The notes under the pieces were generated by a model. That model had not been told where the DNA came from. It made no database searches and saw only the letters and a list, made by a program, of their open reading frames with translations. A DNA stretch of 64,000 nt. It comes from Deefgea salmonis (GTDB lineage Bacteria > Pseudomonadota > Gammaproteobacteria > Burkholderiales > Chitinibacteraceae). Below, one piece after another: positions 1,249-63,078 of this stretch. The DNA lies in NCBI RefSeq assembly GCF_020531905.1, contig NZ_JAJAWG010000005.1:62001-126000 (forward strand), read 5' to 3'. Numbering within the stretch: position 1 is the first letter of the stretch; the number at the start of each line of letters is the position of its first letter. The position numbers and the translations under genes were made by a program.

Positions 1249-2523
1249 CTAGCGCATGGCAAACACTTCATGGTGAAAGCGCGGTGCGCTGCCAAGCTGG
1301 CTTAAATGCTGGCAAATGGCTTGCCCTAGTCCGGCGGGGCCGCAATACCAGATGTCACTCAGTTGCTCGGCGTTGATTTGGCGAATGTCGAGTCTTTGTC
1401 CTGAATCGCTTTCGATTAAATGCAGCCGAATCTGCTTGCTGGCGCAGGCTTGGCGAACTTCATCGAGTCGTGCGGCGGCGCTGGCGCTGCTGACACAGTA
1501 ATAAAAATCAATCGATTGCTGCTGAAAATCGGCGCTATCGAGCCAAGCCAAAAACGGTGTTACGCCAATGCCACCGGCAATCCACGCTTGCGCGCCAGTG
1601 CCTTGGCCATTAAAGCGACCATACGGGCCTTCCACCGTCATTGCTGCGCCAACCTGAAGTTTTTGCGCTAGCGTCTGGGTATAGTCACCTAGCCCTTTAA
1701 TGATAAAGCGCAGCTCGCCATACCCATGGTCAGCAGCGGCAATGGTATACGGATGAGCGCCCTCGGCGGGGTCAAAACTCACCAGTGCAAACTGGCCAGC
1801 GGTATGCCCGGGCCAAGTATTGAGTTGGCAAGTGACGGCGAGCTGATTGGCGGCCAGTGGTTCGATGGCTTGAATGTGGCCTTGGTGTTGTTGGCGTTGG
1901 CCAATTTGGCCAAATAAGGCATACAGCGCGCACAGCGAGCCCGTCAGCAAGGCGGTCGCCATTAAAGCCCCCACCGGCGTCAGCCAAAATTCGCTCGGCA
2001 TTAAAATCAGGCCATGAAATGCGCCCATTAAAAACAACGGGGCAAACAGCTTATGCACTTTGCGCCAATAGCGATAAGGCACGGCGCGCAGTAGCGCTAA
2101 AATCACCATCGCCAAAATCGCCCATGCCGCCCATTCACCGACGTCTTTGGCCCAATCTAGCAGCGGATCTTTGATTTTTGCGCCGCTGCGAATCCGTGGC
2201 GCGGCCCATTCCATGGCCATGACCAGTTTGGGGGATAACTTAATCAACCAATGCGCGGCGAGCAAAATCCCGGCGGTAATCCCGAGCTGCTTGTGCAGCG
2301 CATACATTTTATCCAGGCCATTGAGGGTGCTTTCTAACCATACCGGACGCACGGCCAACAGCATGGCGGCGGACATCACCGTCATCAATTGCACACCAGT
2401 GAGCAGCACCAGCTCATGCCGCCATTGCCAATAGCTAGCGGGGATGCCGTTTTGTAAGTAAGTGGTTGCGCAGTACAGTAACGTGCTGATGAGCAAAATC
2501 AGCGGAAGGGGCTTGTTATACAT
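1249..2523 (-). CDS. Ferric reductase-like transmembrane flavocytochrome / ferredoxin reductase family
   Basis: The 424-residue protein has about six hydrophobic segments in its first 210 residues with paired histidines in helices (for example HKQLG, HWLIK, HKLFA), as in the haem-binding ferric-reductase domain. A soluble FAD/NAD half follows: the HPYTIAAA FAD-binding motif near residue 260, the pyridine-nucleotide motif GGIGVTPFLAW near residue 318, and a C-terminal WYCGPAGLG. The family moves electrons from NAD(P)H through FAD and haem across the inner membrane; the acceptor cannot be told from sequence. The ATG start has GAGG about 7 nt upstream. A copy of the 47-bp GGTAT/ATACC dyad lies inside the gene at 1678-1724. 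Confidence 0.85.
   Translation of the reverse strand: MYNKPLPLILLISTLLYCATTYLQNGIPASYWQWRHELVLLTGVQLMTVMSAAMLLAVRPVWLESTLNGLDKMYALHKQLGITAGILLAAHWLIKLSPKLVMAMEWAAPRIRSGAKIKDPLLDWAKDVGEWAAWAILAMVILALLRAVPYRYWRKVHKLFAPLFLMGAFHGLILMPSEFWLTPVGALMATALLTGSLCALYALFGQIGQRQQHQGHIQAIEPLAANQLAVTCQLNTWPGHTAGQFALVSFDPAEGAHPYTIAAADHGYGELRFIIKGLGDYTQTLAQKLQVGAAMTVEGPYGRFNGQGTGAQAWIAGGIGVTPFLAWLDSADFQQQSIDFYYCVSSASAAARLDEVRQACASKQIRLHLIESDSGQRLDIRQINAEQLSDIWYCGPAGLGQAICQHLSQLGSAPRFHHEVFAMR
1678..1724. repeat. 47-bp GGTAT-N37-ATACC dyad (exact, inside flavocytochrome gene)
   Basis: GGTAT at 1678-1682 and ATACC at 1720-1724. Its interior shares little with the intergenic copies. See the finding on the dyad family. 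Confidence 0.6.
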
Positions 2524-2997
2524 CTGGCGGTCCTCAAAATACGGTGGCGATCAATGGCTGGACGGCGGCTCGCCAGCCGCAAGGTCGAGACGGCGGCAAA
2601 GCGTGGTCTTGGCGCGAGCGAGTGGCGGGTGGTTGATCTGATGTATTGATGTCATCAGCCAAGGCGTTGCCCCAAGCATGGATTAAGCGCCGTGAAGATG
2701 AAGTGAAACTTAAGCGGCAGACTTTTCTTGCTGCGCAGCGGCGTTTTGCCTGCACCAGCATGACAACATACCGACGAATATCGGCAGTATCTATTGCCCT
2801 ACTGATGGCCCAAATCAGCCGCCAGCGCGCCCAAATCGGGCCCTGATTTTGGGGTTCGCTTCAATAGACGCACTTTAGTGGCTTGGCTGGTACCAATGGA
2901 TGCAATTTGTCATGTGCGGCGGACTAAATTGCCTGCTGTGCAGCCGCTGCGCGGCGTATAATCGGCGCGTTTGTTGCTTTCACCTTACAGGCTCATT
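2524..2997. other. Intergenic region without a convincing gene
   Basis: 474 bp between the flavocytochrome and corA, which are divergently transcribed. Short frames on both strands lack a ribosome site and recognisable composition. The only supported element is a TATAAT at 2957-2962, about 36 bp before corA. Confidence 0.5.
2957..2962 (+). promoter_or_regulatory. Candidate -10 hexamer of the corA promoter
   Basis: A perfect TATAAT lies 35 nt before the corA ATG. No good -35 hexamer is found at 16-18 bp spacing, so this is a suggestion only. Confidence 0.4.
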
Positions 2998-3960
2998 ATG
3001 CTCAACGCCTTTGTACTGTCTGCTGGTCGTTTAATCCAAGTGCCTGCCTTGGTGCCCGAGGATTTATCGCGCCCCGAAGTGTTGTGGGTCGATATGGTCG
3101 ACCCCACTGACGACGAACGCGAATTGGTGCAAAAGGTGTTTAAGCTCGAATTGCCCGAGGACGAAGAAGTCAAAGACTTGGAAGAGTCGGCGCGCTGTTA
3201 TGTTGATGAAAACGGCGTGCACATGAGCTCGTTTTTTCTATCGCACTCCGAAGACGAATACGCCAACGTCACAGTGTCGTTTTTGCTGAATCAAGGGCGC
3301 TTACTGACCATTCGCCAAGACGAGCTGGCGGTGTTTCGACTATTTCGCTTACGCGCGCGGGTTCAACCGGGCTTTGTCTCGACCGCGCAAGAGATTTTGC
3401 TGGCGATTTACGATGCCGCTGTCGAGTACGACGCCGATGTGCTCGAAGCAATCTATACCCAGCTCGATGGCGTAAGTCGCCGAGTGCTCGATCGCAGCGC
3501 CGAAATGACCGATGAAATCATGGGCCAAGCGCTGGCTGAGTTGGCTGGCCACGAAGACATTAACGGTAAAGTGCGCCTCGATTTAATGGACACGCGCCGT
3601 GCGCTGTCGTTTTTGCTGCGTAGCCGCGTGTTGGCCACCGCGCAAGAGGGCGATTTGCGCGAGGTGCTGCGCGATCTGGAGTCATTGAATAACCACAGCG
3701 CGTTTTTGTTCGACAAGATTAACTTCTTGATGGACGCGGTGATGGGTTTGATTAATCTGGCGCAAAATAAAATCATCAAGATTTTCTCGATTGCCAGCGT
3801 GGTGTTTCTACCGCCTACCTTAGTCGCGTCCATCTACGGCATGAATTTCGCCCACATGCCCGAGCTCGCCGAAAACTGGGGCTACCCCGCCGCCTTGGTG
3901 CTGATGGTCTTGTCTGGCATCTCACCGTATTGGTTCTTTAAGCGTAAGGGCTGGCTGTAG
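2998..3960 (+). CDS. corA: CorA-family divalent cation transporter
   Basis: The product is 320 residues from the ATG at 2998 (MLNAFVLSAGRLIQ); an in-frame TTG at 2971 is less likely. The cytoplasmic part is rich in acidic residues and helices, and the C-terminus has two transmembrane segments. The signature YGMNF (GMN) ends the first segment and a basic tail (FKRKGWL) follows the second. The family forms pentameric Mg2+/Co2+/Ni2+ channels in the inner membrane. The first base of a 47-bp GGTAT/ATACC dyad is the last base of the TAG stop. Confidence 0.92.
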   Translation: MLNAFVLSAGRLIQVPALVPEDLSRPEVLWVDMVDPTDDERELVQKVFKLELPEDEEVKDLEESARCYVDENGVHMSSFFLSHSEDEYANVTVSFLLNQGRLLTIRQDELAVFRLFRLRARVQPGFVSTAQEILLAIYDAAVEYDADVLEAIYTQLDGVSRRVLDRSAEMTDEIMGQALAELAGHEDINGKVRLDLMDTRRALSFLLRSRVLATAQEGDLREVLRDLESLNNHSAFLFDKINFLMDAVMGLINLAQNKIIKIFSIASVVFLPPTLVASIYGMNFAHMPELAENWGYPAALVLMVLSGISPYWFFKRKGWL

Positions 3961-4006
3961 GTATATGGCTGCAGCCATTTTTGAATGTTGGCCACAAGCA
4001 AATACC
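3960..4006. repeat. 47-bp GGTAT-N37-ATACC dyad (exact, intergenic)
   Basis: Begins at the G of the corA TAG stop. The interior has the GGCTGCAGCC block typical of intergenic copies and a small CATT/AATG hairpin. It lies just before the inverted-repeat element at 4025. Confidence 0.65.
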
Positions 4007-5163: not shown

Positions 5164-6522
5164 ATGTCGTTACAAGCAAGAGCTGATTTGAATCAACTAC
5201 CGGTCAATACGCAATTTTGGCGTTATGTTGTGCCTTCTATCGCGGGCATGTTGGTGGTGAGCTCGAATGTTTTAATCGACGGTATTTTTGTGGGCCGTTA
5301 TGTTGGCGCGCATGCTTTGGCGGCAATTACGTTGGTTTATCCGATTGTGATGTTGCAGATCGGTTTAGGCGCGATGATCAGTATGGGCGCGGCAACGCGG
5401 ATTTCGATTTTGCAAGGCGCGGGGCAAGTTGTGGCCGCCAAGCAAACATTGGCCAATACCTTGATTATGATTGCCCTATTGGGTATTGCTCTGCCCGCCA
5501 TAGGCATCAGCCAGTTGGAGCATATACTGGTACTGCTGAACGCGGATAATGCCGCCGATGTGCTGCACGAAGCACGCGCTTATTTGCGCTTAATGCTGTG
5601 GGGCGGCGTGGTGAATATCGGCCAGATTGCGGCGATTTTTTTGATTCGCAATGATGGTCAGCCTAAATTAGCCACGCTATTGGTGGCGTTCAGTGCGCTG
5701 AGTAATATCGCGTTAAATTATCTATTTTTGGTGCACTTTCAGTTGGGCTTGGCCGGCGCGGCAATGGCCACGCTGCTGGTCGAGGGCTTTATCACGCTGG
5801 CTGGCTTGCTGTATTTTTTTAGCCCGCTGGCGCATTTACGCTTGGCGCTGGCCGATTTACGCGCCGATTGGGCGAGTATGCCGGCGATATTGGGGCTGGG
5901 GTTTTCCAGCTTATTAATGGAAGCCAATCTGGCGCTGTTGATGTTTGCCCATAATTATCAGCTGTTGGAATACGGCAAGGGCAACGATGTGGCGGCGTAT
6001 GCGATTGCGGCTTATACCGAGGCGGTGTTTATTTTGCTAATTCACGGCTTGGCGATGGGAATGCAGCCCTTATTAAGCCATGCCACTGGTGCCAAAGACG
6101 CCGAACGCTTGGTGCAGATTTTGCGCTATGGCTTGCGGGTCAGTGTGGTCATTGGTGTGTGTTTATTGGCAACCGTGCAGTTGTTCCCAGCAACGATTGC
6201 TGCGCTATATGTTGGCAATGATCCAGTGTTAATCGCACTGGCGACAGATGCTTTGCGCTGGCATTTATTTGCCTTGCCGTTTGATGGCATTTTGATTGTG
6301 GGGGTGATTGCTTTGCAAGCGATGGCATTAACGCGCTTGGCGATGGTGGGTACCTTGGGTAAAACGCTACTGTTGATCCCGGCGCTCTGGCTGATGCCGC
6401 AATGGTGGGGCGTTACCGGCATTTATACCGCCTTGCCGCTGGTAAATATGCTGCTGGGTAGCATTATTGGCTTGGTGCTGTGGCAGCAGCTACGTCGGCT
6501 GCGAAAAACCGCGCTGGAATAA
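5164..6522 (+). CDS. MATE-family multidrug efflux transporter
   Basis: This 452-residue polytopic protein has about twelve hydrophobic segments in two homologous halves, the MATE (NorM/DinF-like) layout. It opens with NTQFWRYVVPSIAGMLVVSS and contains the family-typical NVLIDGIFVGRYVG near residue 40. MATE carriers export cationic drugs and dyes in exchange for Na+ or H+; the substrate is unknown. It is divergent from the TetR regulator at 4400-5035, which is its likely repressor. A near-exact 47-bp dyad (GGTAT/ATACT) lies at 5482-5528 within the gene. Confidence 0.88.
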   Translation: MSLQARADLNQLPVNTQFWRYVVPSIAGMLVVSSNVLIDGIFVGRYVGAHALAAITLVYPIVMLQIGLGAMISMGAATRISILQGAGQVVAAKQTLANTLIMIALLGIALPAIGISQLEHILVLLNADNAADVLHEARAYLRLMLWGGVVNIGQIAAIFLIRNDGQPKLATLLVAFSALSNIALNYLFLVHFQLGLAGAAMATLLVEGFITLAGLLYFFSPLAHLRLALADLRADWASMPAILGLGFSSLLMEANLALLMFAHNYQLLEYGKGNDVAAYAIAAYTEAVFILLIHGLAMGMQPLLSHATGAKDAERLVQILRYGLRVSVVIGVCLLATVQLFPATIAALYVGNDPVLIALATDALRWHLFALPFDGILIVGVIALQAMALTRLAMVGTLGKTLLLIPALWLMPQWWGVTGIYTALPLVNMLLGSIIGLVLWQQLRRLRKTALE

Positions 6523-8466: not shown

Positions 8467-8467
8467 T

Positions 8468-10862: not shown

Positions 10863-10909
10863 GGTATTGCTCGCTGAGGCATGGCTAATCATCATTGTGT
10901 CTATATACC
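10863..10909. repeat. 47-bp GGTAT-N37-ATACC dyad (exact, intergenic)
   Basis: Begins 5 bp after the ruvC stop and ends before the LysE-family ribosome site. Its first ten bases (GGTATTGCTC) are identical to those of the copies at 5482 and 58154. Confidence 0.65.
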
Positions 10910-13559: not shown

Positions 13560-13606
13560 GGTATTTAGCTGCAGCCTTTGATTTTCAATGGCTGGGTTCA
13601 GATACC
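13560..13606. repeat. 47-bp GGTAT-N37-ATACC dyad (exact, intergenic)
   Basis: Lies between ruvA and ruvB and ends 19 bp before the ruvB start. The centre could fold as AGCCTTTGA/TCAATGGCT with one mismatch. Confidence 0.65.
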
Positions 13607-13624: not shown

Positions 13625-14665
13625 ATGATCGAAACTGACTCGCTGTTTTCAGCTCCGCCGCCCGATCGATTGATTGCGGCGCAAAAGATTTCCAGCAATG
13701 AAGACATGCAAGAGCGGGCTTTACGGCCTAAATTGCTCGACGAATACGTCGGGCAAATGAAGGCGCGCGGCCAGCTGGAGATTTTTATTGAAGCGGCGAA
13801 AAAGCGCGGTGAAGCGCTGGATCATGTGCTGTTGTTTGGCCCACCGGGTTTGGGCAAGACCACACTGGCGCATATCATCTCCCGCGAATTGGGGGTGAAT
13901 TTGCGGCAAACGTCGGGTCCGGTGTTGGAACGTGCTGGCGATTTGGCGGCATTGCTGACCAATCTTGAGCCGCACGACGTACTGTTTATTGATGAAATCC
14001 ATCGACTCTCGCCGGTGGTAGAAGAAATTCTCTACCCAGCGCTCGAAGACTTTCAGCTCGATATTATGATTGGTGAAGGCCCTGCGGCGCGCTCAGTCAA
14101 ACTCGATCTGCCACCGTTTACCTTGATTGGTGCGACCACGCGCGCTGGGATGTTGACCAATCCGCTGCGCGATCGTTTTGGCATTGTGGCGCGTTTAGAG
14201 TTTTATACGCCTGAAGAGCTAACCCGCATCGTCACGCGTTCGGCTAGCTTGATGCAGGTGGAGATGGACGAAGCGGGCGCGTTTGAAGTGGCGCGGCGCT
14301 CACGCGGCACGCCGCGGATTGCCAATCGTTTATTGCGGCGAGTGCGCGATTTTGCTGAAGTGAAACACGATGGCAAAGTCACGCGCGAAGTGGCGGATGC
14401 GGCGCTGCAAATGCTCGACGTCGATCATGCCGGTTTGGATGTGATGGATAGAAAAGTATTACGCGCGATTTTGGATAAATTTGCCGGTGGTCCAGTGGGC
14501 TTGGACAATGTGGCGGCGGCGATTGGTGAATCGTCCGATACCATCGAAGAAGTGATTGAGCCGTATTTAATTCAACAAGGCTTTTTGCAGCGCACGCCGC
14601 GTGGCCGCATGGCGACTTTAAGTGCTTATCTACATTTTGGATTAGAAGCACCAAAAACGGAGTGA
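13625..14665 (+). CDS. ruvB: Holliday junction branch migration ATPase RuvB
   Basis: The 346-residue AAA+ ATPase has Walker [10 protein letters not shown] (about residue 72), Walker B LFIDEIHR, sensor 1 IGATTRAG, the arginine finger region in NPLRDRFG, and the C-terminal winged-helix domain ([15 protein letters not shown]). It forms hexamers that pump DNA through the RuvA-bound junction. The length and all motifs are normal. Last gene of the ruv set. Confidence 0.97.
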
Positions 14666-18888: not shown

Positions 18889-19893
18889 ATGTCAACGTCC
18901 ACCTTATCGAGTTCGACCGCTTTGCAAGACCGATTTGGCCGTGCCATACGTTATTTGCGGCTATCGGTTACCGATCGCTGCGATTTGCGCTGTAATTACT
19001 GCTTGCCCAAGGGTTTTGACGATTACGAAGAGCCGAAAAACTGGCTCAACTTTGATGAAATGACCCGCTTAGTCGCCATCTTTGCCAAAGCGGGGGTATC
19101 GCGCGTGCGTTTAACCGGCGGCGAGCCCTTATTACGCCGCAATTTGCCAGAATTGGCCGCGCGTTTAGCCGCTTTGCCCGGCGTGGATGATCTGTCTTTA
19201 TCGACCAACGCCACTCAGCTTGGCAAACACGCGGTGGCGCTCAAAGCGGCCGGCGTTAAGCGCATCAATGTTAGTCTGGATTCACTGGATAAAGGCTGTA
19301 TTAATACCATCACTGGTCGGGATAGTTTCGACGCGATTATGGCCGGAATTATGGCAGGCAAGGCCGCAGGCTTTGCGCCGATCAAGCTCAATATGGTCGC
19401 CATGCGCGGTGTGAACGAGCATGAAATTCAGCGTATGGTGGCGTTTTGCCTCGAAAATGGTTTTATTTTGCGCTTAATCGAAGCCATGCCGATGGGCGAC
19501 ACCGGCCGCAATGCGCAATATATGGATTTGAATCCAATCCGTGAGCAATTGGTGTCGCAGTTTGACCTGATTCCTGAAGTGGCTGAATTGGGCGGCGGAC
19601 CAGCACGCTACTGGCAAACGCAAGACGGCACTGGCCGAGTCGGTTTTATCACGCCAATTTCACAGCATTTTTGTGCCACGTGTAATCGAGTGCGTTTGTC
19701 GGTCGACGGCACTTTGTATATGTGTTTGGGGCAGGAAGAAAAATTTGAATTCGCGCCCTTATTGCGCGGTGGCGCGACGGATGAAGAAATCCTCGCCGCC
19801 TTGCAGCATGCGATTGAGTTAAAACCCGAAAAACATGAGTTTAAAGAGCAGCCCGGCAAGATTATCCGCTTTATGTCGCAAACGGGTGGCTAG
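18889..19893 (+). CDS. moaA: GTP 3',8-cyclase MoaA (molybdenum cofactor biosynthesis)
   Basis: The 334-residue radical-SAM enzyme starts at ATG 18889 after AAAAGGA. The N-terminal cluster motif CDLRCNYC (CxxxCxxC in TDRCDLRCNYCLP) binds SAM; the C-terminal cluster uses CATC and a later cysteine (FCATCNRVRLSVDGTLYMC). The protein ends in Gly-Gly, as active MoaA does. With MoaC it converts GTP to cyclic pyranopterin monophosphate. The C-terminal GG is needed for activation in known MoaA proteins. The rest of the pathway is 1-6 kb downstream. A dyad copy begins at the last base of its TAG stop. Confidence 0.96.
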   Translation: MSTSTLSSSTALQDRFGRAIRYLRLSVTDRCDLRCNYCLPKGFDDYEEPKNWLNFDEMTRLVAIFAKAGVSRVRLTGGEPLLRRNLPELAARLAALPGVDDLSLSTNATQLGKHAVALKAAGVKRINVSLDSLDKGCINTITGRDSFDAIMAGIMAGKAAGFAPIKLNMVAMRGVNEHEIQRMVAFCLENGFILRLIEAMPMGDTGRNAQYMDLNPIREQLVSQFDLIPEVAELGGGPARYWQTQDGTGRVGFITPISQHFCATCNRVRLSVDGTLYMCLGQEEKFEFAPLLRGGATDEEILAALQHAIELKPEKHEFKEQPGKIIRFMSQTGG

Positions 19894-19939
19894 GTATTGG
19901 GCTGTGGCCATTGCCAGTCAATGCTTGTATTGATATACG
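19893..19939. repeat. 47-bp dyad, near-exact (GGTAT...ATACG)
   Basis: Begins at the G of the moaA TAG stop. Centre folds as CATTG-CCAGT-CAATG. Confidence 0.5.
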
Positions 19940-20596: not shown

Positions 20597-20643
20597 TGTA
20601 TTTGATTGTAGCCTTTGATCAGCAATGCTTTGCTGGCAATACT
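20597..20643. repeat. 47-bp dyad, degenerate ends (TGTAT...ATACT)
   Basis: The outer base is changed at both ends but the spacing is exact and the interior (GATTGTAGCCTTTGAT, CAATGC) matches the intergenic subfamily. Confidence 0.5.
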
Positions 20644-20936: not shown

Positions 20937-21446
20937 ATGACCCACATCCTCGGTATTACTGGTTATTCCGGTTCGGGTAAAACCACGTTGATTGAAGCAT
21001 TGCTGCCGGAACTCGCTCAGCTGGGTTGGCGGGTGAATGTGATTAAGCATTCGCACCATGATTTGGAGCTAGAGCCGCCGCGTAAAGATAGCGCGCGGTT
21101 TCGCTCGGCTGGTGCTGGCGAGGTGATGGTGGTGTCGCCGTTTCGCTACGCGATTGTGCACGAACTACGCGGTGCGGCTGAACCTACGCTAGCTGAGCAA
21201 ATTGCGCGGCTGGCGCCGGCGGATTTGACCTTGTTAGAAGGCTTTAAATCGGAAGAAATCCCCAAAATAGAAATCTGGCGCGAGGCCAATGGCAAGCCGC
21301 TGTTGTATCCAGATCATGCCAGTATTGTCGCCATTGCCACAGACAGCCAGCTTGAGCAGGCAATACCCCATCTGAATTTGAACGATGTGCCGGCATTGGC
21401 GCAGTTTATTTATGCTTTTTTTTCAAGCGAATCACGCGGCATTTGA
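20937..21446 (+). CDS. mobB: Molybdopterin-guanine dinucleotide biosynthesis adaptor MobB
   Basis: The product has 169 residues from ATG 20937; an in-frame GTG at 20928 is an alternative. The P-loop [15 protein letters not shown] (about residue 8) and the following IKHSHHDLE are typical of MobB, a GTP-binding helper that assists MobA in attaching GMP to molybdopterin. It heads the moeA-moaD-moaE-mobA/moaC cluster. A near-exact dyad (AGTAT/ATACC) lies inside at 21321-21367. Confidence 0.92.
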
Positions 21447-21608: not shown

Positions 21609-22799
21609 ATGCTGGATTTTGCGACTGCCTTGGCGAACTTACTGGCCGCAGCGCGCCGAGTGCGCGAGTTTGAACATCTGGATTTATTAGCGGCCAATGG
21701 CCGAGTTTTGGCGCACGACGTGATTTCGCCGTTGGCGGTGCCCGGCTTTGATAACAGCGCGATGGATGGATATGCGCTTAATATCGCCGATTTTAACTCC
21801 CCGCCAGCCGATTTTTTGCTGAGCCAGCGCATTGCGGCAGGAGAAGTAGGACAGGCACTCGCAGTCGGTGAGGCGGCGCGGATTTTTACCGGAGCACCGA
21901 TTCCGGCTGGTGCTAATGCGGTGGCGATGCAAGAGGTTTGCACGGTGAACGATGGCCGAGTCACGGTGACGATGCCACTGAAAAATGGCGCGAATATTCG
22001 CCGCGCCGGTGAGGATATTGCCGCGCAATCGGTGGTGTTGACGGCCGGAACGCGTTTGGGTGCGGCAGAGATCGGTTTGGCGGCGTCGATTGGTTGGCCG
22101 ACTTTGCCGGTGGTGCAGCCACTCAAAGTGGCGCTTTTGAGTACTGGGGATGAGCTGGTTGAGCCGGGCAAGCCATTGGCGGCGGGGCAGATTTATAACT
22201 CCAACCGCTATGCGCTGCATACTTTGCTGCAAACCTTGGGCTGCGCGGTGACTGATTTTGGCATTGTCGGCGATGATAGCGCGGCGACGATTGAATTACT
22301 CACGATAGCTGCTGAGCAAAACGATGTGGTCATCACGTCTGGTGGGGTATCGGTCGGTGAAGAAGACCATGTAAAAGCTGCAGTTGAATACCTAGGTTCA
22401 CTCGATCTATGGAAAATCGCTATGAAGCCGGGAAAACCATTTGCCCATGGCCGAATTTCTGAGGCTGATTTTATTGGTTTGCCGGGTAATCCAGTGTCGA
22501 GCATGGTGACATTTTTAATGCTGGTGCGTCCGTTCTTATTAGCGCGCCAAGGCGTAACGGCGCTTGATCCGGTGAGTTTGCCGCTGATCGCGGCATTTGA
22601 TTGGAAAAAAGCCGGCGATCGCCGCGAGTTCTTGCGAGTGCGTTTAAATGCGGCTGGGCAAGTCGAGTTATTCCCACGACAAGGATCGGGCGTGTTGACG
22701 TCGATGGTGTGGGGCGATGGTTTGGTGGATTTGGCAGCAGGGCAAACGATTAGCGCCGGTGATATGGTGAAGTACTTGCCGTTGTCGGCCTTGGTTTAA
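21609..22799 (+). CDS. moeA: Molybdopterin molybdenumtransferase MoeA
   Basis: The 396-residue enzyme starts at ATG 21609 after GGAG and inserts molybdate into MPT-AMP. Seen: the N-terminal PGFDNSAMDGYAL, the central ALLSTGDEL and the molybdopterin-binding TSGGVSVGEEDHV with the catalytic-region aspartate, then MKPGKPFAHG and the GLPGNPVSSMV motif. Length is normal. An exact 47-bp dyad (22346-22392) spans the conserved GGVSVGEEDHVK codons, which argues against that dyad being an insertion. Confidence 0.96.
   Translation: MLDFATALANLLAAARRVREFEHLDLLAANGRVLAHDVISPLAVPGFDNSAMDGYALNIADFNSPPADFLLSQRIAAGEVGQALAVGEAARIFTGAPIPAGANAVAMQEVCTVNDGRVTVTMPLKNGANIRRAGEDIAAQSVVLTAGTRLGAAEIGLAASIGWPTLPVVQPLKVALLSTGDELVEPGKPLAAGQIYNSNRYALHTLLQTLGCAVTDFGIVGDDSAATIELLTIAAEQNDVVITSGGVSVGEEDHVKAAVEYLGSLDLWKIAMKPGKPFAHGRISEADFIGLPGNPVSSMVTFLMLVRPFLLARQGVTALDPVSLPLIAAFDWKKAGDRREFLRVRLNAAGQVELFPRQGSGVLTSMVWGDGLVDLAAGQTISAGDMVKYLPLSALV
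22346..22392. repeat. 47-bp GGTAT-N37-ATACC dyad (exact, inside moeA)
   Basis: GGTAT at 22346-22350 and ATACC at 22388-22392, across codons for a conserved MoeA motif. Confidence 0.55.
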
Positions 22800-37747: not shown

Positions 37748-37794
37748 GGTATATGATTGTAGGCTATGCCTATATTGGTTTACATGGCAATACC
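37748..37794. repeat. 47-bp GGTAT-N37-ATACC dyad (exact, intergenic)
   Basis: Starts at the first base after the TAG stop of the TPR gene; contains a TAGGC-TAT-GCCTA hairpin. The terminator at 37819 follows. Confidence 0.65.
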
Positions 37795-43444: not shown

Positions 43445-44200
43445 TTAGCGGCGAATTTTGTATCCCGATTTTATCAAGGAGAAGGCCATTGCGGCGAGAA
43501 TAAGTAAACTAAATCCGACTACGGACAAAGAAAGCCAGGGATTGACATCACTTTGACCAAAAAATCCGTAGCGAAAGCCGTCAATCATATAAAAAACCGG
43601 ATTAAAGTGCGAAACGTGCTGCCAAAATGGCGGCAAGCTATGAATCGAGTAAAACACGCCAGATAAAAAAGTCAGCGGCATAATCAAAAAGTTTTGAAAC
43701 GCGGCCAGCTGATCAAATTTTTCGGCCCAAATCCCAGCAATCATGCCCAATACTGCCATAATGCCGCAGCCTAATAGCGCAAAAGTTAAAATCCATAGGG
43801 GGTATTTAAGGCTAGGCAAGTCAAATATTAGTGCCGTGAGCGATACCCCTAGACCGACTACCAGCCCACGTACAATCGCGGCCAGCGTATAGGCCGAGAA
43901 AAACTCAAAGTGCGACAACGGTGGTAGCAAAACAAACACCATGCTGCCGGTGATTTTGGATTGAATAATACTCGAGCTGGTATTGGCAAAAGCATTTTGC
44001 AGCATGCTCATCATCATTAAACCGGGAATCAAAAACGCGGTATAGCTCACGCCTGCTAAAGGCTGAACGCGATCGGCTAAGACTTGTGAAAACACCAGTA
44101 AATACATCAAGGCCGTTAAAATCGGCGCGGCGACGGTTTGAAAGCCAACCTTCCAAAAACGTAATATTTCTTTATAAAACAGCGTGTAAAAGCCGGTCAT
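43445..44200 (-). CDS. ABC-2 type exporter permease (YadH-like)
   Basis: The 251-residue protein has six hydrophobic helices and matches the ABC-2 permease family from MTGFYTLFYKEILRFWKVGFQTVAAP onwards (only part quoted) to the late FYSIHSLPPFW. It pairs with the ATPase gene just upstream. YadGH-type exporters next to mla genes are common in betaproteobacteria; the substrate is unknown. An exact 47-bp dyad lies within it at 43801-43847. Confidence 0.88.
   Translation of the reverse strand: MTGFYTLFYKEILRFWKVGFQTVAAPILTALMYLLVFSQVLADRVQPLAGVSYTAFLIPGLMMMSMLQNAFANTSSSIIQSKITGSMVFVLLPPLSHFEFFSAYTLAAIVRGLVVGLGVSLTALIFDLPSLKYPLWILTFALLGCGIMAVLGMIAGIWAEKFDQLAAFQNFLIMPLTFLSGVFYSIHSLPPFWQHVSHFNPVFYMIDGFRYGFFGQSDVNPWLSLSVVGFSLLILAAMAFSLIKSGYKIRR
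43801..43847. repeat. 47-bp GGTAT-N37-ATACC dyad (exact, inside ABC permease gene)
   Basis: GGTAT at 43801-43805 and ATACC at 43843-43847. Confidence 0.55.
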
Positions 44201-50633: not shown

Positions 50634-50667
50634 ATTGACAAGCCTGCCGCTGAAACTTTCAATTTTT

Positions 50668-50680
50668 AAAAGCTATGCTA
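50668..50680 (+). promoter_or_regulatory. AAAAGCTATGCTA motif upstream of mshL (site 2)
   Basis: Exact copy of the motif at 49230-49242, 31 bp before the mshL start, so mshL may also have its own promoter. Confidence 0.45.
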
Positions 50681-50711
50681 GCTTGAGGTAAGTTAACAAA
50701 AAGAATTGAGT

Positions 50712-52520: not shown

Positions 52521-53680
52521 GTTTGCCAAGTTTAGATTACGCCAAGGACGAGGCCGTCTCCGAGCGACAGGACGAGGCCGCAGTGCCGCATTGGGATGCC
52601 GCGCACCGTGCATCACCGAAGGCGGCGACGGATTCAAGCGCGCTCAATCAGGTCGCTACGATGATCAATTCGGCGGAAAAAGACCGTGTCAGCCAAATTA
52701 AGCGTGCGCTGGCGACAAGCTTGCCGTGGCTGATTGTCGGTGGCGGCATCTTGTTTGGCTTGGCGCTGGCGGTGGTGTTTTTGCCGTATCAAATCTCAGC
52801 AACACCGATGATGGCGAGCGCATCGCTGCCCCGTGAATCCGCCTTGAGTGAATCGGTCTCTAGTCAAGCGATCCCCAGTGCCTCCGTCGTCACGATGGCG
52901 GCATTGCCATTGGACACTCAATTAGCTGGGTATATGGATGCAGCATCATCAAGCAAAGCCATGGATGCCAATACCCCTCCAGTTAAATCGCCAGCAGCAG
53001 CGATTGGTCTTACTCGTTCAGCGTCTCAAACACAATTTAACGCCCGCGTGCAGCCAGTTCGGGCAATCGGGTCGCCGCGCCGCGTCATGCAGATTGAACG
53101 GATGCCGGTGAACACGATGGATCCATTACAGCAAGCATGGCAAGCCTACCAACGGGGGGAATTTACCCAGGCCGAGCAGTATTACCAGCAAGCCATGCAG
53201 CAAAACCCGCGACAGCGCGATGCCGCTTTGGGTTTGGCGGCTATCGCGCAAATTCGCGGTGATGCAACGCGCGCGCACAGCTTGTATCGCCATATTTTGC
53301 AGCAGCACCCTGACGATGCCGCTGCCAAACAGGCGTTGTTGGCTTTGCCGCAAGCGGTGACTGAGCAAGATATTTTGCAATTGGAACAAAGCGGCCAAGC
53401 CGACCCACAGATTTTGGCGCAATTTTATGCCAGCGAGCAGCGCTGGAGCCAAGCGCAGGCGCAGTTTTTTATCGTCTATAGCCAATACCCTAGCGCTACG
53501 GCGGCATTTAATTTAGCGGTGAGTTTGGATCATTTGCAGCAGCCCACATTGGCGCTGCAATACTATCGACAAGCCTTACAAGGGGTCGGGGCGTTTGATC
53601 GTTCGGCGGTGCAGCAACGGATTGCGGCATTAAGCGCGCAGCCCTTGTCGAGTGAGGCGCAACATGCCGCACAGCACTAA
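52517..53680 (+). CDS. mshN: MshN-like inner-membrane TPR protein
   Basis: 387 residues. One membrane helix at about 69-90, a disordered Ala/Ser-rich stretch, then TPR repeats (about 200-380: AWQAYQRGEFTQAEQYYQQA, AALGLAAIAQIRGDATRAHSL). This is the MshN layout; the TPRs would sit in the periplasm and tie the secretin to the platform. The ATG overlaps the mshL stop (ATGA) and the gene overlaps mshE by 17 bp. An exact 47-bp dyad lies at 52929-52975. Confidence 0.82.
   Translation: MSLPSLDYAKDEAVSERQDEAAVPHWDAAHRASPKAATDSSALNQVATMINSAEKDRVSQIKRALATSLPWLIVGGGILFGLALAVVFLPYQISATPMMASASLPRESALSESVSSQAIPSASVVTMAALPLDTQLAGYMDAASSSKAMDANTPPVKSPAAAIGLTRSASQTQFNARVQPVRAIGSPRRVMQIERMPVNTMDPLQQAWQAYQRGEFTQAEQYYQQAMQQNPRQRDAALGLAAIAQIRGDATRAHSLYRHILQQHPDDAAAKQALLALPQAVTEQDILQLEQSGQADPQILAQFYASEQRWSQAQAQFFIVYSQYPSATAAFNLAVSLDHLQQPTLALQYYRQALQGVGAFDRSAVQQRIAALSAQPLSSEAQHAAQH
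52929..52975. repeat. 47-bp GGTAT-N37-ATACC dyad (exact, inside mshN-like gene)
   Basis: The interior shares TATGGATGCAGC with the intergenic subfamily (TATGGCTGCAGC at 3960), unlike other coding copies. Confidence 0.6.
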
Positions 53681-55361
53681 ACGGCGCTTGGGCGAACAAT
53701 TAATCGATAAAGGCTTGATTTCTGATGATCAACTGCGCATCGCTTTACTTGAGCAGCGGCAATCAGGATTGTTGTTGGGTAAGATTTTGGTGGATTTGGG
53801 GTTTTTATCCGACCACGTTTTGCGCGAAGCACTGTCTGAAAATCTAGGTCAAGTCAGTATTGATTTAAATCGGGTGATTTGCGATGCGCGAGCGATTGCT
53901 TTGCTCCCGAAGGTGATGGCCAAGCGCTTATTGATTTTGCCGATCGGCTTAAATCCAGCGCAAACCAAACTGACTGTCGCCATGGCCAATCCCAATCATT
54001 TATTACAAATTGATCAGCTGCGGTTACATACGCAAGGCCAATTTGAGATCGAAGTGGTGTTGGCCGCCGAATCCGATTTAATCCGCGCCATTGATCAATA
54101 TTATGGTTTTGAGTTGTCGATTGACGGTATTTTGCGCGAAATCGAAACCGGTGAAATTGATTACAGCAGCTTAAATCACACGCAATTTGAATACTCGCAA
54201 CCGGTGGTGCGCTTAATGGACGCTTTATTGGCCGACGCTGTGCGCTGCGGCGCGTCGGATATTCATTTTGAGCCGGAGTCGTCTTTTGTCCGAATTCGCT
54301 ATCGAATTGACGGCGTCTTGCGGCAAATTCGGGCGCTGCACAAAACCTATTGGCCGGCGATGGTGGTGCGGCTAAAAGTGCTGGCGCAAATGAATATTGC
54401 CGAAACACGCGCCGCGCAAGATGGACGAATTTCGCTGACTTTGGCTGGGCGAGCCATTGATTTTCGGGTTTCGGCCCAGCCAACCCGTTGGGGCGAAAAT
54501 CTGGTGCTGCGGATTTTAGATCGTCAGCAAGGCTTGCTCAGCTTGCTGGAGCTGGGTTTAAGTGCCGCCAATTTAGCCCTCTTACAGCAAATGATCCGCC
54601 GGCCAGCCGGAATGATTTTACTCACCGGCCCCACCGGATCGGGCAAAACCACCACCTTGTATTCGATTTTGAATCACATCAATTCAGTCGCGCTCAATAT
54701 CATGACGCTGGAAGATCCGGTTGAATATCCCTTGCCGCTGATTCGGCAAACGTCGATTAGCGACGCGTCCAAAATGGATTTTGCCAACGGCATTCGCTCG
54801 ATGATGCGGCAAGACCCCGACGTGATCTTAGTGGGTGAAATTCGCGATCATGAGACCGCCGAAATGGCGTTTCAGGCGGCGATGACCGGGCATTTGGTGT
54901 ATTCAACCTTGCACAGTAATTCAGCCATTGGCGCTTTACCGCGCTTACTGGATATTGGCGTGCTGCCCGATATTCTTTCGGGCAATATGCTGGCGATTAT
55001 TGCGCAGCGGCTAGTTCGTACGCTGTGTATGGCTTGTCGTGAGGGGTATAGCCCCGATGACGATGAACGGCGGTTATTGCAGATTGATACCCCTGATATG
55101 CAGCTTTATCGGGCCGTCGGTTGTGCGGCGTGTGCACAGCAAGGTTATCGAGGCCGCAGTACGGTGAGTGAGATTTTAAAACTCGACGCCGATTTAGACG
55201 AGCTGATCGCTCGCCGCGCCACGCTAAAAGAAATTCGCCAGTTGGCCATCAGTAAGGGCTTTACCAGTTTGGCCGATGATGCTTGCCGCCGCGTTCGCGA
55301 AGGGCTGTCGACGCTGGACGAAATTAGCCGAGTGGTGGACTTGAGCGAGCGCTTACGCTGA
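53664..55361 (+). CDS. mshE: MshE-like pilus extension ATPase with predicted c-di-GMP-binding N-domain
   Basis: 565 residues from ATG 53664. The N-terminus carries two tandem MshEN motifs, RRLGEQLIDKGLISDDQL then LLLGKILVDLGFLSDHVL, the form that binds cyclic di-GMP in Vibrio MshE. The GspE/PilB ATPase follows: Walker A LTGPTGSGKTTTLYS, Asp box, Walker B ILVGEIRDHETAE, His box TGHLVYSTLHSN, and a zinc tetra-cysteine module (LCMAC ... CAAC). It powers pilus assembly. An exact dyad lies at 55045-55091. Confidence 0.93.
   Translation: MPHSTKRRLGEQLIDKGLISDDQLRIALLEQRQSGLLLGKILVDLGFLSDHVLREALSENLGQVSIDLNRVICDARAIALLPKVMAKRLLILPIGLNPAQTKLTVAMANPNHLLQIDQLRLHTQGQFEIEVVLAAESDLIRAIDQYYGFELSIDGILREIETGEIDYSSLNHTQFEYSQPVVRLMDALLADAVRCGASDIHFEPESSFVRIRYRIDGVLRQIRALHKTYWPAMVVRLKVLAQMNIAETRAAQDGRISLTLAGRAIDFRVSAQPTRWGENLVLRILDRQQGLLSLLELGLSAANLALLQQMIRRPAGMILLTGPTGSGKTTTLYSILNHINSVALNIMTLEDPVEYPLPLIRQTSISDASKMDFANGIRSMMRQDPDVILVGEIRDHETAEMAFQAAMTGHLVYSTLHSNSAIGALPRLLDIGVLPDILSGNMLAIIAQRLVRTLCMACREGYSPDDDERRLLQIDTPDMQLYRAVGCAACAQQGYRGRSTVSEILKLDADLDELIARRATLKEIRQLAISKGFTSLADDACRRVREGLSTLDEISRVVDLSERLR
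55045..55091. repeat. 47-bp GGTAT-N37-ATACC dyad (exact, inside mshE-like gene)
   Basis: GGTAT at 55045-55049 and ATACC at 55087-55091, within the zinc-module codons. Confidence 0.55.
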
Positions 55362-56560: not shown

Positions 56561-58077
56561 AACGCATTGTGTTACTTTTAACGCCAACCCACACCGCCGC
56601 GCTGTGCGCTTCAAACCAAGGCGTTCGGCCCTTAGCGCATTTTAATCATGACGCCGCAGGCCGGGCGAGCTTGGCGCAATTTTCGCTGGCGCAGCAGCAC
56701 GGTTTATTTTATGTGTTGACTGATTTGGGCGAGGAAGATTTTCAGCAAGAAGTCATTCCGCATTTGACGCGTCAAGATCAGCAGCGCTTGATTGCGCGTA
56801 AATTAGAGCAACGCTATCGCGGTACGACGTATCGCTATGGGCGGGTCTTGCAACAAGCGGGTCAGCAAGATCAACTGCAGCTATCGGCTTTATTAAATGA
56901 AGCGCCGCTCGATGCTTTAATCAGCACTTTACTGACGGCAAACTGCGCGATTGCCGGCGTGTATTCCGTGGCGCTGTTGACAGAAAACCTATTAAAAAAA
57001 TTACGCTTGGATCGTCCGCATTTATTAATTATGTCGCGTTCAACACCCGAGACGTTGCGGCAAAGCTATTTTGTCGACAGCACCTTGCAGTTCTCTCGTT
57101 TGGGTCATCTGGATGTAACGCCGAATTTATTGGCGCAAGCGCAGGGCATTATTGAACAGGCGCATCGCGCTCGGCAGTATTTAACGACAATGCGCGTCTT
57201 GGCGCGTGACGAAGTATTGCCCGTTTGGGCCTTGTTTGACGTCAGCATGAGCCAAGCGTTACGGCAAATTGCCGCCAATAGCGACGTTGGCGGTGACGAG
57301 TTAACGCTCGATTTGCAAGTGGATTTGGCTTTTTTGCAGCAAAAACTGCAATTACCCAGCGGCGGTTTAAGTTGGCTGGATGTGCTGCTGGCGGCTTTAT
57401 TGCAGCTCAATGTGCCGAACCAATATGCGCCACCTGCGGTGCTGCGTTTAGCGCGCTCAAGGCAGTTGGCAAGACGTATTAAGTTCTGCGCCTTTGCCAT
57501 TGTGGCTTTGGCGGCAATACTGCTGGGTTTGGCGCTATGGCAAGGTCAAAAAATACAAGCGCAATGGCCGAGTTTACAGCAGCAAATTGAGCATGAAACC
57601 CAGCAATTGGCCGCGCTGCAGCCCTTGAGTCAGCGCATTGATCCTGTGCATATGCAAGCTGCGGTACAGCTGTATCAGCGAGACCTTGCCAATTGGCCGA
57701 GTGCAACAGAGGCCGCACAGCGTTTTAGTCAGGTGTTGACGCCGTTTTCGCAGCTGCAATTAATTAATTTTCAGTGGCAAACCGGCACGGCGGGCTTGCT
57801 CGCCAGCACGGACCCAACGTTGCCGCTGCGTGCGCAGCAGATCAAAGTGACTTTGCGCGCCAGCCCTTTGGCGACGGAGCAGCAAGCGTGGCAGCAAATT
57901 GAGCAATTACTCGCCCAATTGCAGCGCTGGCCCAATGCCAAAGTGGCGCTGATGCCCAGCCCAACTGAAGCGCGCACGAGCGCCAGCGCGGATGACGCTG
58001 CTGAATCTGCTGCGCCTTGGCCGATGGATTTTGTCTTGCAATTGACCTTGGCCAATCCGCCGCCGGAGGCGCAATGA
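56557..58077 (+). CDS. mshI: MshI-like assembly protein (GspL/PilM-N type)
   Basis: 506 residues: an N-terminal half (about 1-290) that resembles the degenerate actin-like cytoplasmic domain of MshI/GspL, one membrane helix (about 308-328, AFAIVALAAILLGLALW), and a periplasmic coiled-coil/ferredoxin-like part rich in Gln. In MSHA systems MshI recruits the ATPase to the membrane. In the canonical order mshI begins the operon; here it follows mshG. Overlaps both neighbours by ATGA. Confidence 0.82.
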   Translation: MKRIVLLLTPTHTAALCASNQGVRPLAHFNHDAAGRASLAQFSLAQQHGLFYVLTDLGEEDFQQEVIPHLTRQDQQRLIARKLEQRYRGTTYRYGRVLQQAGQQDQLQLSALLNEAPLDALISTLLTANCAIAGVYSVALLTENLLKKLRLDRPHLLIMSRSTPETLRQSYFVDSTLQFSRLGHLDVTPNLLAQAQGIIEQAHRARQYLTTMRVLARDEVLPVWALFDVSMSQALRQIAANSDVGGDELTLDLQVDLAFLQQKLQLPSGGLSWLDVLLAALLQLNVPNQYAPPAVLRLARSRQLARRIKFCAFAIVALAAILLGLALWQGQKIQAQWPSLQQQIEHETQQLAALQPLSQRIDPVHMQAAVQLYQRDLANWPSATEAAQRFSQVLTPFSQLQLINFQWQTGTAGLLASTDPTLPLRAQQIKVTLRASPLATEQQAWQQIEQLLAQLQRWPNAKVALMPSPTEARTSASADDAAESAAPWPMDFVLQLTLANPPPEAQ

Positions 58078-58658
58078 AGCGGGTGCTCTGGCCGTTGGAA
58101 AAATCGCTGCGCTTGGCCGTATGCTGCTTGTTTGCTGCGCTGCTGGTAGCTGGGGTATTGCTCTGGGGCGCTCAGCGGTATTGGTATTGGAGCCAATACC
58201 AGCAAGATCGCTTGCAGCAGACTTTAGATCAGCGGCGTCAGCAAGTGCAGCAACGCCAGCAGGCGTGGCAAACTATTGCGCAATATCAAGCGCCATTTAA
58301 TCGTCTGCTGGCCCAGCAAATAATCGGTACTGAGCAGCAAGCTGAGCATTTGCAGGCATTGGCGCGGTATCGACAACAGCATCCACAACAGCAATTACAG
58401 TATCAATTACACGCGCCACAGCCTTGGCTCGCGGCCGCGCCGATCGCGAACTTACAAACTTTTGCCAGTCCGCTCAATATTGAATTGCGATTGCGCGATG
58501 AAGACGCGCTGTCGAGTTTTTCGCTGTGGCTTGAGCAGCAGCCGGGCTTGATTGCACCGGCGCGCTGCGAAATGCGCTTGGCCCAGCCCAGTGGCATTGT
58601 GCTGAACTGTGAGTATCTGTGGTTAACGCTTCAGCCAAGCCCAGCGGAGTTGCGATGA
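58074..58658 (+). CDS. mshJ: MshJ-like assembly protein (PilO/GspM type)
   Basis: 194 residues with one N-terminal membrane helix (about 15-40), a Gln-rich coiled coil, then a small periplasmic domain. Size, layout and place between MshI- and MshK-like genes fit MshJ. The codons for RYWYWSQYQ contain GGTATTGG/CCAATACC and the right end of a dyad (58154-58200). Confidence 0.75.
   Translation: MKRVLWPLEKSLRLAVCCLFAALLVAGVLLWGAQRYWYWSQYQQDRLQQTLDQRRQQVQQRQQAWQTIAQYQAPFNRLLAQQIIGTEQQAEHLQALARYRQQHPQQQLQYQLHAPQPWLAAAPIANLQTFASPLNIELRLRDEDALSSFSLWLEQQPGLIAPARCEMRLAQPSGIVLNCEYLWLTLQPSPAELR
58154..58200. repeat. 47-bp GGTAT-N37-ATACC dyad (exact, inside mshJ-like gene)
   Basis: Starts with GGTATTGCTC as at 5482 and 10863; the ends extend to GGTATTG/CAATACC. 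Confidence 0.6.
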
Positions 58659-60647: not shown

Positions 60648-60668
60648 GGTTGGATTATTTGCGCAGTT

Positions 60669-62068: not shown

Positions 62069-63078
62069 TGAGTTTGGTTTCTTTTCTTTTGCCTTGTTTT
62101 AATTCCGAGGCGTATCTGCAGCAAACCCTTGATTCAATTGCCGCTCAAACTCATACCCAATGGGAATGTATTGCGATTGATGATGGCTCAACAGATGGCA
62201 CTTGGGCTTTATTGCAGCAAGCTGCGGCCAATGATTCGCGTTTTAAGGTGATCAGCCGCGAAAATCGCGGTTTGATTGCCACGCTCAATGAAGCGATTGC
62301 TTTGGCGCAAGGGCAATGGCTGGCACGCATCGACGCCGATGATATTTGCTGGCCACAGCGATTGGCAATGCAGTTGGCGCGCTTGGCAGAAACCGGCGCC
62401 GATGTTTGCGGCACTTGGGTGCGCTTTATTGGCGATCGCTCGGGAGAATGGCAAACGCAAAGTACCGATGCCAGCATTAAAACTGGCTTACTGTTTAATT
62501 CTACCCTCGCCCATCCCACGGTGATGATGCGCGCCAGTTTAGTCAAAGGCGCCGGTTACGACGCCAGTGCGATTCACGCCGAAGACTATGCGCTATGGTG
62601 CCGTTTGGCTTTGCAAGGCGCGCTGTTTACTGGCGTGCCTGCCGTGCTGCTCGATTATCGCTGTCACGCCGGACAGATTACGCAGGCCAAAAAACAGCAA
62701 CTTCGCGCCACCGCGCAGAAAATTCGTCTCGATTACGCCAGGCAAGCGCTACCTTTGCCCTTGCAAGCCGTAGCGACCGAATGGGCTGAGCTGCTAGAAC
62801 CGGCTCGCGTGTTGACGGTGAGCGAATGCCGCAGCGTGTTTGCGATGTTATTGCAAATCGCGCAGTTCTCTGCAGCGAGCCAACCGGCGCTGGCCGAGGC
62901 TTGGTTAGATGCATTGCAGCGCACGCAAGGCGTGAGTCTGGGTATGTGCTTTGACGCTTTTTCTATCAAGGCTAAGCTACCCATACCCCAGTCAGAAGCG
63001 AAAAAATGGCATAAACAAATATTTCGTATGCTGATCAGTGATCGTGTGTGGCAAATCATCAAACGAGTGCAAGCATGA
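62068..63078 (+). CDS. Family 2 glycosyltransferase
   Basis: 336 residues from ATG 62068, overlapping the flippase stop. GT-A fold with SFLLPCFNSEAYLQQTLDSI, IAIDDGSTDGTWALLQ, the metal-binding RIDADDICWPQRL, and HAEDYALWCRLALQG. It probably adds a sugar to the lipid-linked glycan at the cytoplasmic face; donor and acceptor unknown. Dyads lie within it (62111-62157 near-exact, 62941-62987 exact). Confidence 0.9.
   Translation: MSLVSFLLPCFNSEAYLQQTLDSIAAQTHTQWECIAIDDGSTDGTWALLQQAAANDSRFKVISRENRGLIATLNEAIALAQGQWLARIDADDICWPQRLAMQLARLAETGADVCGTWVRFIGDRSGEWQTQSTDASIKTGLLFNSTLAHPTVMMRASLVKGAGYDASAIHAEDYALWCRLALQGALFTGVPAVLLDYRCHAGQITQAKKQQLRATAQKIRLDYARQALPLPLQAVATEWAELLEPARVLTVSECRSVFAMLLQIAQFSAASQPALAEAWLDALQRTQGVSLGMCFDAFSIKAKLPIPQSEAKKWHKQIFRMLISDRVWQIIKRVQA
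62941..62987. repeat. 47-bp GGTAT-N37-ATACC dyad (exact, inside glycosyltransferase gene)
   Basis: GGTAT at 62941-62945 and ATACC at 62983-62987, in the poorly conserved 3' end. Confidence 0.55.

Follow-up and report, generated by a model that had tools for sequence, protein, structure and literature searches.

A 47-bp dyad of fixed geometry recurs along the chromosomes of Deefgea, Chitinibacter and Chitinilyticum

Background

Deefgea belongs to the family Chitinibacteraceae in the order Neisseriales. We analysed a stretch of 64,000 nucleotides from Deefgea salmonis (contig NZ_JAJAWG010000005.1, positions 62,001 to 126,000; hereafter the window, at its full length) in which genes and the spaces between them share one feature: a 47-bp inverted dyad, GGTAT-N37-ATACC, that is repeated from one end to the other. 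A first-pass annotation of the window had picked out the dyad by eye and had offered as possible readings a recombinase site, a segregation mark, the site of a DNA-binding or DNA-bending protein, and an uptake mark.

Few chromosome-wide DNA marks are known, and several of them have led to a central process such as transformation, recombination, segregation or division. In this paper we count the dyad in the window, in its genome and in related genomes, describe its placement, conservation and taxonomic range, and weigh the readings that could account for it.

Methods

The exact dyad is GGTAT-N37-ATACC (47 bp) and the core dyad is GTAT-N37-ATAC (8 fixed bases). The genome of the window (G000; 3.26 Mb, 26 contigs) was sampled in 302 kb, made up of the window and 12 further stretches. 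Synonymous codons were shuffled gene by gene (100 shuffles), and first-order Markov sequences of the same sample size were generated in 20 runs. Placement counts were taken from a second gene call; the first had missed genes such as 61924-63078. Sequence logos were drawn from core-selected sites.

The other Deefgea genomes compared with the window were G001, G002, G003, G004 and G006, the last three being more distant. Named loci were 80 retained of 379 relatives from a MurA search, up to 21 kb each, the closest of the 80 being a Deefgea MAG at 99% identity, and the genera of two groups of family genomes, g6 and g11, were inferred from them. Candidate reader proteins were sought by single protein-family searches across 43 genomes of the family.

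Results

Copy number and controls

The exact dyad is present 11 times in the window, at every start first listed, and the core dyad 18 times, exact copies included (Table 1). All six core-only copies listed earlier are likewise in place, but that list was incomplete, a further one lying at 57475. When spacers of 0 to 119 were scanned across the window, no spacer but N37 exceeded one exact copy or three core copies; N37 has 11 and 18. In the 302-kb sample N37 has 39 exact copies, the mean for the remaining spacers from 0 to 199 being 0.28, and 82 core copies against 2.8, while in the entire genome the exact dyad occurs 387 times and its reversed-pattern control twice. Markov sequences gave 0.10 exact and 2.0 core copies; within the genes of the sample, 15 exact and 37 core copies were observed against 0.48 and 3.86 after codon shuffling (maxima 3 and 8). 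The annotation had reasoned that a signal due to chance or codon bias would show no enrichment of spacing 37 over its neighbours, or would be equalled in shuffled sequence. The spacer scans of the window and of 302 kb of the genome, both kinds of shuffle and the reversed control all speak the other way, and with no point in its favour the explanation by chance or codon bias has practically no probability left. The 47-bp dyad is confirmed as a real, strong signal. Its inverted half-sites stand 42 bp apart, start to start, or four helical turns, as originally described.

Table 1. Exact and core dyads in the window, with their setting and their state in the other Deefgea genomes compared.
Class	Position	Setting	Other Deefgea genomes
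exact	1678..1724	inside ferric-reductase-like gene 1249-2523 (-)	
exact	3960..4006	between convergent genes; starts on last base of stop codon of open reading frame (ORF) 2971-3960	
core (outermost right base changed)	5482..5528	inside MatE gene 5164-6522 (+)	
exact	10863..10909	intergenic, tandem genes (second gene call); edge in first gene call	
exact	13560..13606	just upstream of ruvB (13625-14665)	
core	19893..19939	starts on last base of moaA stop codon (ORF 18856-19893)	scores in G001, G002; not mapped in other three
core	20597..20643	intergenic; interior close to L028 copies	scores in G001; not mapped in other four
core	21321..21367	inside ORF 20928-21446 (+)	
exact	22346..22392	inside moeA (21597-22799)	
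core	26847..26893	gene edge after FtsJ/S4 gene 26095-26835	scores in G001, G002, not G003
exact	37748..37794	between convergent genes (TPR protein / hisD)	scores in G001, G002, G003, not G006
exact	43801..43847	inside ABC-2 permease gene 43445-44200 (-)	
exact	52929..52975	inside ORF 52499-53680 (+)	
exact	55045..55091	inside GspE/PilB-like ATPase gene 53652-55361 (+)	
core	57475..57521	inside ORF 56557-58077 (+)	
exact	58154..58200	inside ORF 58017-58658 (+)	
core	62111..62157	inside glycosyltransferase gene 61924-63078 (+)	scores in G001, G002, G004; low in G006, G003
exact	62941..62987	inside glycosyltransferase gene 61924-63078 (+)	scores in all five

Anatomy of the site

Aligned on the core and symmetrised, the half-site reads roughly r-G-G-T-A-T-n5-T-n2-A-G-n-C-n-T-T. 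It is bipartite: GTAT, at 19-22 bp from the centre, is strict, and A-G-n-C-n-T-T, at 4-10 bp, is looser. AT-rich stretches lie about 5-12 bp outside each half-site. The motif is broadly alike in Deefgea, in a Chitinibacter-like genome (G042) and in a Chitinilyticum-like genome of 60% GC (G016), where the inner part is sharpest. Half-sites with the inner motif were paired with ATAC 82 times at N37, three times at N38, three times at N43 and never at any other spacer from 30 to 44. The interiors of coding copies had been described as mostly unrelated; interiors do, however, share a weak inner dyad, and some copies beside a longer repeat have near-identical ones.

Because the logos were built from core-selected sites, the strictness of GTAT has to be judged from one-mismatch counts. 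In five genomes from the three genera, in which the spacer is strict too, perfect 8-base cores are 23- to 39-fold over expectation, whereas cores with one mismatch hardly rise over background in any of them (largest excess 39 vs 28.6, standard deviation (SD) 5.9). The sample from G000 has 82 perfect cores where 3.3 are expected and 89 one-mismatch cores where 76.5 are expected (SD 11.6). No position of the core was clearly tolerant of mismatch, and extrapolation from the five genomes gives some 640-900 core sites per genome above chance, one per 3.7-5.6 kb. No contiguous 10-mer of the strength of the DNA uptake sequence (DUS) stands out in the sampled DNA of the three genera; counts of words therefore miss the dyad, which may be how it escaped notice.

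Placement and spacing

The sampled DNA of G000 is 83% coding, and its 82 core sites comprise 37 coding, 39 intergenic and 6 at gene edges. A context could be assigned to 38 of the intergenic sites: convergent gene pairs flank 14 of them (8.7 kb of DNA), tandem pairs 23 (26.3 kb) and divergent pairs one (12.0 kb of the 47.0 kb of intergenic DNA), so that the sites are largely kept out of divergent promoter regions. Intergenic sites are also nearer to the 3' ends of genes (median 56 bp) than to the 5' ends (160 bp; first gene call), and two dyads in the window, at 3960 and 19893, overlap a gene end, their first base being the final base of a stop codon. The dyad form, the bipartite half-sites and the intergenic enrichment would suit the operator of a large regulon, read by a global transcription factor with hundreds of targets. 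A single divergent site in 38, 37 of 82 sites inside genes and no clear excess of one-mismatch cores make that reading quite unlikely.

In 24 stretches of 20 kb from the complete chromosome of G001 we counted 1-8 core sites each, with no trend between replication origin and terminus (ori/ter). The three stretches of lowest GC, 60 kb together, contained 6 core sites, where the density over all stretches (110 in 480 kb) predicts about 14. The distribution over the 24 stretches is neither regional nor polar about ori/ter, and a palindrome cannot be polar, which speaks against the segregation mark of the first-pass annotation insofar as one of the matS or KOPS kind was meant. Within the window, 13 core sites fall in 45.6 kb of aligned DNA and 5 in 18.4 kb of unaligned DNA, the latter being largely outside the compared synteny; in this comparison, which bears on recently acquired DNA, the unaligned part is not depleted in sites.

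Neighbouring sites are seldom close together. Over all pieces, 11 gaps shorter than 500 bp were found where 45 were expected. The gaps in the Deefgea pieces lack independence, since six genomes contributed orthologous regions to them; in the two Chitinibacter-like genomes by themselves 0 were found against 11 expected. In none of 1000 random placements were gaps below 1 kb so few, whether for the full set, the Deefgea set or the Chitinibacter-like set. As controls, five hexamers, each occurring at least 380 times and thinned to that number, gave 77-105 gaps below 1 kb, against 49 for the dyad with its 416 sites; for three less frequent words, with 222, 284 and 361 sites, the gaps numbered 37, 54 and 90. 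Exact sites follow one another at more regular intervals than chance would give in the listed part of G042 (coefficient of variation 0.80; 1.3% of simulations as low), but not in that of G011 (1.06). The natural reading of the spacing is local redundancy, one site per stretch being enough. To the eye, the free positions of the listed sites favour A and C in G011 and G and T in G042, a pattern that strand-biased mutation might produce.

Conservation and origin of sites

Twenty-three sites in the window were scored against the other Deefgea genomes. Sixteen could be mapped in G001 and 15 in G002, where 15 and 13 still score; the corresponding fractions are 4/6 in G006, 5/5 in G004 and 5/8 in G003. 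Third codon positions within coding cores are identical at 24/24 positions in G001 (flanks 203/286) and 24/24 in G002 (217/286), with 9 of 11 coding sites alignable in each, and at 11/11 in G006 (57/127), 11/11 in G004 (64/128) and 9/11 in G003 (59/126), with 4 of 11 sites alignable. These comparisons support the view that selection acts on the DNA of the site itself.

The site at 43801 could be followed furthest. Its alignment comprises 17 sequences, of which 16 align across the site (one Chitinilyticum locus does not). All 7 aligned sequences of the three genera match the core at 8/8 bases, whereas 9 sequences from seven other genera of the family match it, without gaps, at 4-5/8; the core encodes a tyrosine where the other genera have histidine (8/9) or asparagine (1/9). 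The alignment makes it most likely that substitutions created the site where it stands, ahead of the divergence of the three genera, and that it has been kept since. Insertion of a transposon or a miniature inverted-repeat transposable element (MITE) at 43801 was considered and rejected on the ungapped match to the nine motif-less orthologues, so the earlier statement that the dyad is not simply an inserted element is borne out at the one site where it could be checked. At other sites the alignments to other genera are missing or gapped, and some copies there may have arisen by insertion. Most other sites in the named loci are not alignable between genera; the pair L046:15051 / L058:11897 matches at 8/8.

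A longer repeat block, in several forms by eye, lies at L028:15380-19370 (G000:C22, about 57.4-61.4 kb) and has a dyad directly behind it at 15464, 16068 and 19321 and a degraded form at 17411. The dyads in L028 share near-identical interiors, and some sites may thus spread with the repeat. Searched for with a strict pattern, the core of the block turned up twice in the 302-kb sample and nowhere in the other sets.

Taxonomic range

Across 43 genomes of the family, 15 genomes of three genera hold 259-542 exact dyads and the other 28, of eight genera, hold 0-8. The three are g1 (7/7 genomes, 259-453 copies), g6 (6/6, 376-542) and g11 (2/2, 276 and 298), and the named loci identify the motif-bearing genera as Deefgea, Chitinibacter and Chitinilyticum. 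At least two exact copies were found in 7 of the 80 named loci (three Deefgea, two Chitinibacter, two Chitinilyticum), a single copy in L049, from a metagenome-assembled genome (MAG) that groups with Iodobacter, and none in the remaining 72. In a draw of 399 genomes from the order, no genome outside the three genera exceeded 8 exact copies, and in a draw of 397 from the phylum none exceeded 12, that count of 12 standing against 11 in its own control and the next, 10, against 2.

In a tree of five concatenated proteins, Deefgea, Chitinibacter and Chitinilyticum form a clade (support 0.989) whose sister is the Iodobacter group (0.963). The simplest reading is a single origin after the split from Iodobacter. 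A first weight matrix gave three hits in a Neisseria MAG locus (L097) and one in each of three other loci; with a pooled matrix the other Neisseriales, in the set excluding L121, gave no hit above the cut-offs shown. An ancestral inner dyad lacking GTAT was sought in Iodobacter and other Neisseriales and rejected, since at the highest cut-off all motif-less sets have about 2-3 fold more of it than of the reversed control, which we read as composition and not as sites. Among viral contigs, 54 had one match each to a 15-base pattern, which is near chance by an estimate made without a control, and a search of plasmids gave no match to a 9-kb piece.

Other dyads with 5-mer arms and spacers of 0-99 were scanned for in independent stretches of 40-60 kb from each of seven other family genomes, and one of comparable strength was found. 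A genome of the same family, G010 (L132-L134), carries a short dyad, GGGTC-N2-GACCC, in 8 copies in 60 kb against 0.03 expected. Applied to pooled orthologous loci from Iodobacter, Vogesella and Neisseria, the scan returned several strong hits, which lack independence.

Search for a reader protein

Four protein families were tried as readers, and none tracks the dyad. The Y1/REP transposase family (PF01797) is matched in 26/43 family genomes and has no match in five of the 15 motif-bearing ones (G002, G003, G011, G045, G016). Large serine recombinases act at att sites that are dyads of 40-50 bp with inner and outer contacts in each half, and the dyad is like them in length and in having both parts per half; PF07508 was tried because two-domain binding fits such an arrangement. 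It is matched in 13/43 family genomes, but in only 3/15 motif-bearing ones.

HU/IHF proteins (PF00216) give 4-5 matches in all 15 motif-bearing genomes, but also at least 4 in 13/28 others, including all nine of genus g8, and 3 in 15/28. G000, G042 and G016, one genome per motif-bearing genus, carry a fourth HU-like (DNABII) paralog, at L277:1501-1818, L276:1480-1782 and L278:1501-1800, with lysS and a major facilitator superfamily transporter gene adjoining in the first two loci. A fragment of the same paralog type in the motif-less G013 (L279) means that the paralog does not track the dyad either. ParB (PF02195) shows no clade-specific extra, a single ParB_N match being found in 10/15 motif-bearing and 21/28 motif-less genomes. 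This narrows the list of possibilities first offered in part only, speaking against Y1/REP transposases and large serine recombinases and leaving architecture and uptake standing.

Outside these searches, the genes at 49305-58658 of the window (AAA ATPase, secretin, GspE/PilB-like ATPase and GspF-like) resemble an MSHA-type pilus or type II secretion operon.

Discussion

We know of no family of chromosomal marks with the form of this dyad, as the first-pass annotation had also stated, and in the open-licence papers of PubMed Central a search for these genera, the half-site words and dyad motifs found nothing on it. The dyad is very probably the double-stranded site of a symmetric DNA-binding protein. 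A candidate clade-specific protein of two-fold symmetry would bind it, each subunit reading one bipartite half-site through contacts on about one face of the DNA over four helical turns, and the AT-rich flanks suggest that about 65 bp would be bent or wrapped. The sites would then act as architectural anchors covering the chromosome, for nucleoid organisation or loop anchoring. A cytosolic dimer with such a task would be consistent with the dyad form, the wide coverage and the scarcity of sites in divergent promoter regions, though we put the architectural role forward tentatively; the full statement, which joins a clade-specific symmetric reader, bending or wrapping, and architectural anchors, is offered with the same reserve. 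We think it reasonably probable that the dyad marks a previously undescribed, ancient chromosome-wide recognition system, in which a symmetric protein reads 47 bp almost digitally at an extrapolated 640-900 sites per genome, rarely less than half a kilobase apart, under selection that suffices to dictate codon choice and, in one gene or more, to preserve a tyrosine at a position where the other genera of the family mostly have histidine.

Several observations weigh against this proposal. No binder was found, the Y1/REP, large serine recombinase, HU/IHF and ParB families being a poor fit, and the near all-or-none core is sharper than is usual for proteins with graded affinity. The exclusion zone around sites and their placement at gene ends fit an uptake signal equally well. 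In G016 alone (39 sites) 2 gaps below 1 kb were seen against 5.3 expected, with 59 of 1000 placements as low, which is not significant. Sites also turn over: a site at 59595 is lost in G001 and G002, the one at 62111 scores low in G006 and G003, and D. rivuli shares 4/5 named-locus sites with D. chitinilytica and 1/3 alignable ones with a Deefgea MAG. Finally, the arms of intergenic sites match each other beyond the consensus (9.13 of 18 vs 8.09 shuffled, SD 0.31), as do arms pooled over five genomes (6.86 vs 5.99, SD 0.10), and the site of a dimer needs no such covariation.

That last observation, together with the copies that lie directly behind a longer repeat, speaks for a hairpin element acting as RNA or single-stranded DNA, whether a repetitive extragenic palindromic (REP)-like sequence, a terminator or a MITE. 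The arms of coding sites do not covary (5.51 vs 5.29 shuffled, SD 0.35), and no hairpin is therefore needed; non-coding copies do tend to form one, and quasi-palindrome correction may account for the match between their arms. An intrinsic terminator was rejected for want of T-run asymmetry, T numbering 79 upstream and 81 downstream of 22 tandem intergenic sites (first gene call), and an Rfam scan of the window gave no match. Five of the 15 motif-bearing genomes have no match to a Y1 transposase, and the site at 43801 evolved in place without gaps. REP sequences and bacterial interspersed mosaic elements, with their RAYT transposases, are like the dyad in being palindromic, frequent between genes and clade-specific. 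They are extragenic hairpins, whereas 37 of 82 dyad cores in the sample are coding, with arms there that do not covary, and Y1 transposases do not track the dyad. On this evidence we regard a hairpin element as very unlikely.

The dyad could also be a signal for recombination, repair or the distinction of host from foreign DNA in the cell, in the manner of Chi but free of orientation. The near all-or-none core, even coverage and local redundancy would suit such a signal. Chi and KOPS, however, are short, contiguous and directional, and no reader emerged from the family searches; we consider this use of the dyad unlikely.

Neisseriaceae, the home of the DUS, are placed in the same NCBI order, Neisseriales, as the motif-bearing genera. 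The dyad might be a new uptake signal, analogous to DUS and the uptake signal sequence (USS) though with no sequence relation to them, by which self-DNA is recognised in natural transformation through a surface or periplasmic receptor and which molecular drive maintains. The near all-or-none core with loose flanks and AT-rich tracts recalls the USS of H. influenzae, whose inner core must match perfectly (PMC7811141). Avoidance of close neighbours, placement at gene ends and between convergent genes, and restriction to one clade of Neisseriales would all be in keeping, as would the link drawn between DUS spacing and the length of conversion fragments (PMC2397512). DUS dialects are described within Neisseriaceae (PMC3630211). 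ComEC (PF03772) is present in 43/43 family genomes; it was the only competence gene searched, and its equal presence in the 28 motif-less genomes means that it does not discriminate.

Against an uptake signal stands the form of the dyad, 47 bp with a fixed spacer of 37 bp, where known signals have 9-12 bp. DUS are often arranged as closely spaced inverted pairs, on average about 1.1-1.5 kb apart (PMC2397512), whereas neighbouring dyads are rarely close and are spaced at about 4 kb. The sampled DNA of the three genera lacks the canonical DUS: the 10-mer was found 0 times in all four sampled sets, and the 9-mer of the USS 0-3 times per set, while the same script found 147 DUS in 139 kb from seven Neisseria loci as a positive control. 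We hold an uptake signal to be possible but doubtful.

The binding site of a symmetric protein remains the reading that we favour, and the protein, its symmetry and any bending of the DNA are what we infer from the dyad. The dyad is long, symmetric and near all-or-none, present in 15/15 genomes of three genera and absent in the sister genus, and it offers a ready bait for isolating its reader. Iodobacter on one side and Chitinibacter and Deefgea on the other offer a natural before-and-after comparison for how a genome acquires such a system.

Among known systems, the dyad is like the DUS of Neisseriaceae and the USS of Pasteurellaceae in occurring in hundreds of copies with a strict core, within genes and in non-coding DNA, and in being limited to a clade; with the USS it further shares a strict inner core, looser flanks and AT tracts. 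It differs from both in that they are short, contiguous, over-represented words of 9-12 bp, whereas it is a 47-bp dyad of fixed spacer. The sites of matS/MatP, KOPS/FtsK, SlmA and Noc, and Chi, are chromosome-wide marks each read by one protein, and are short, and polar or regional. The dyad is chromosome-wide as well and would likewise be read by one protein, but it is symmetric and long and shows no ori/ter trend in G001. HIP1 of cyanobacteria, a highly iterated palindrome of uncertain function, is iterated and palindromic like the dyad and also lies within genes, but it consists of 8 contiguous bases where the dyad is bipartite, its halves held apart by a spacer of 37 bp.

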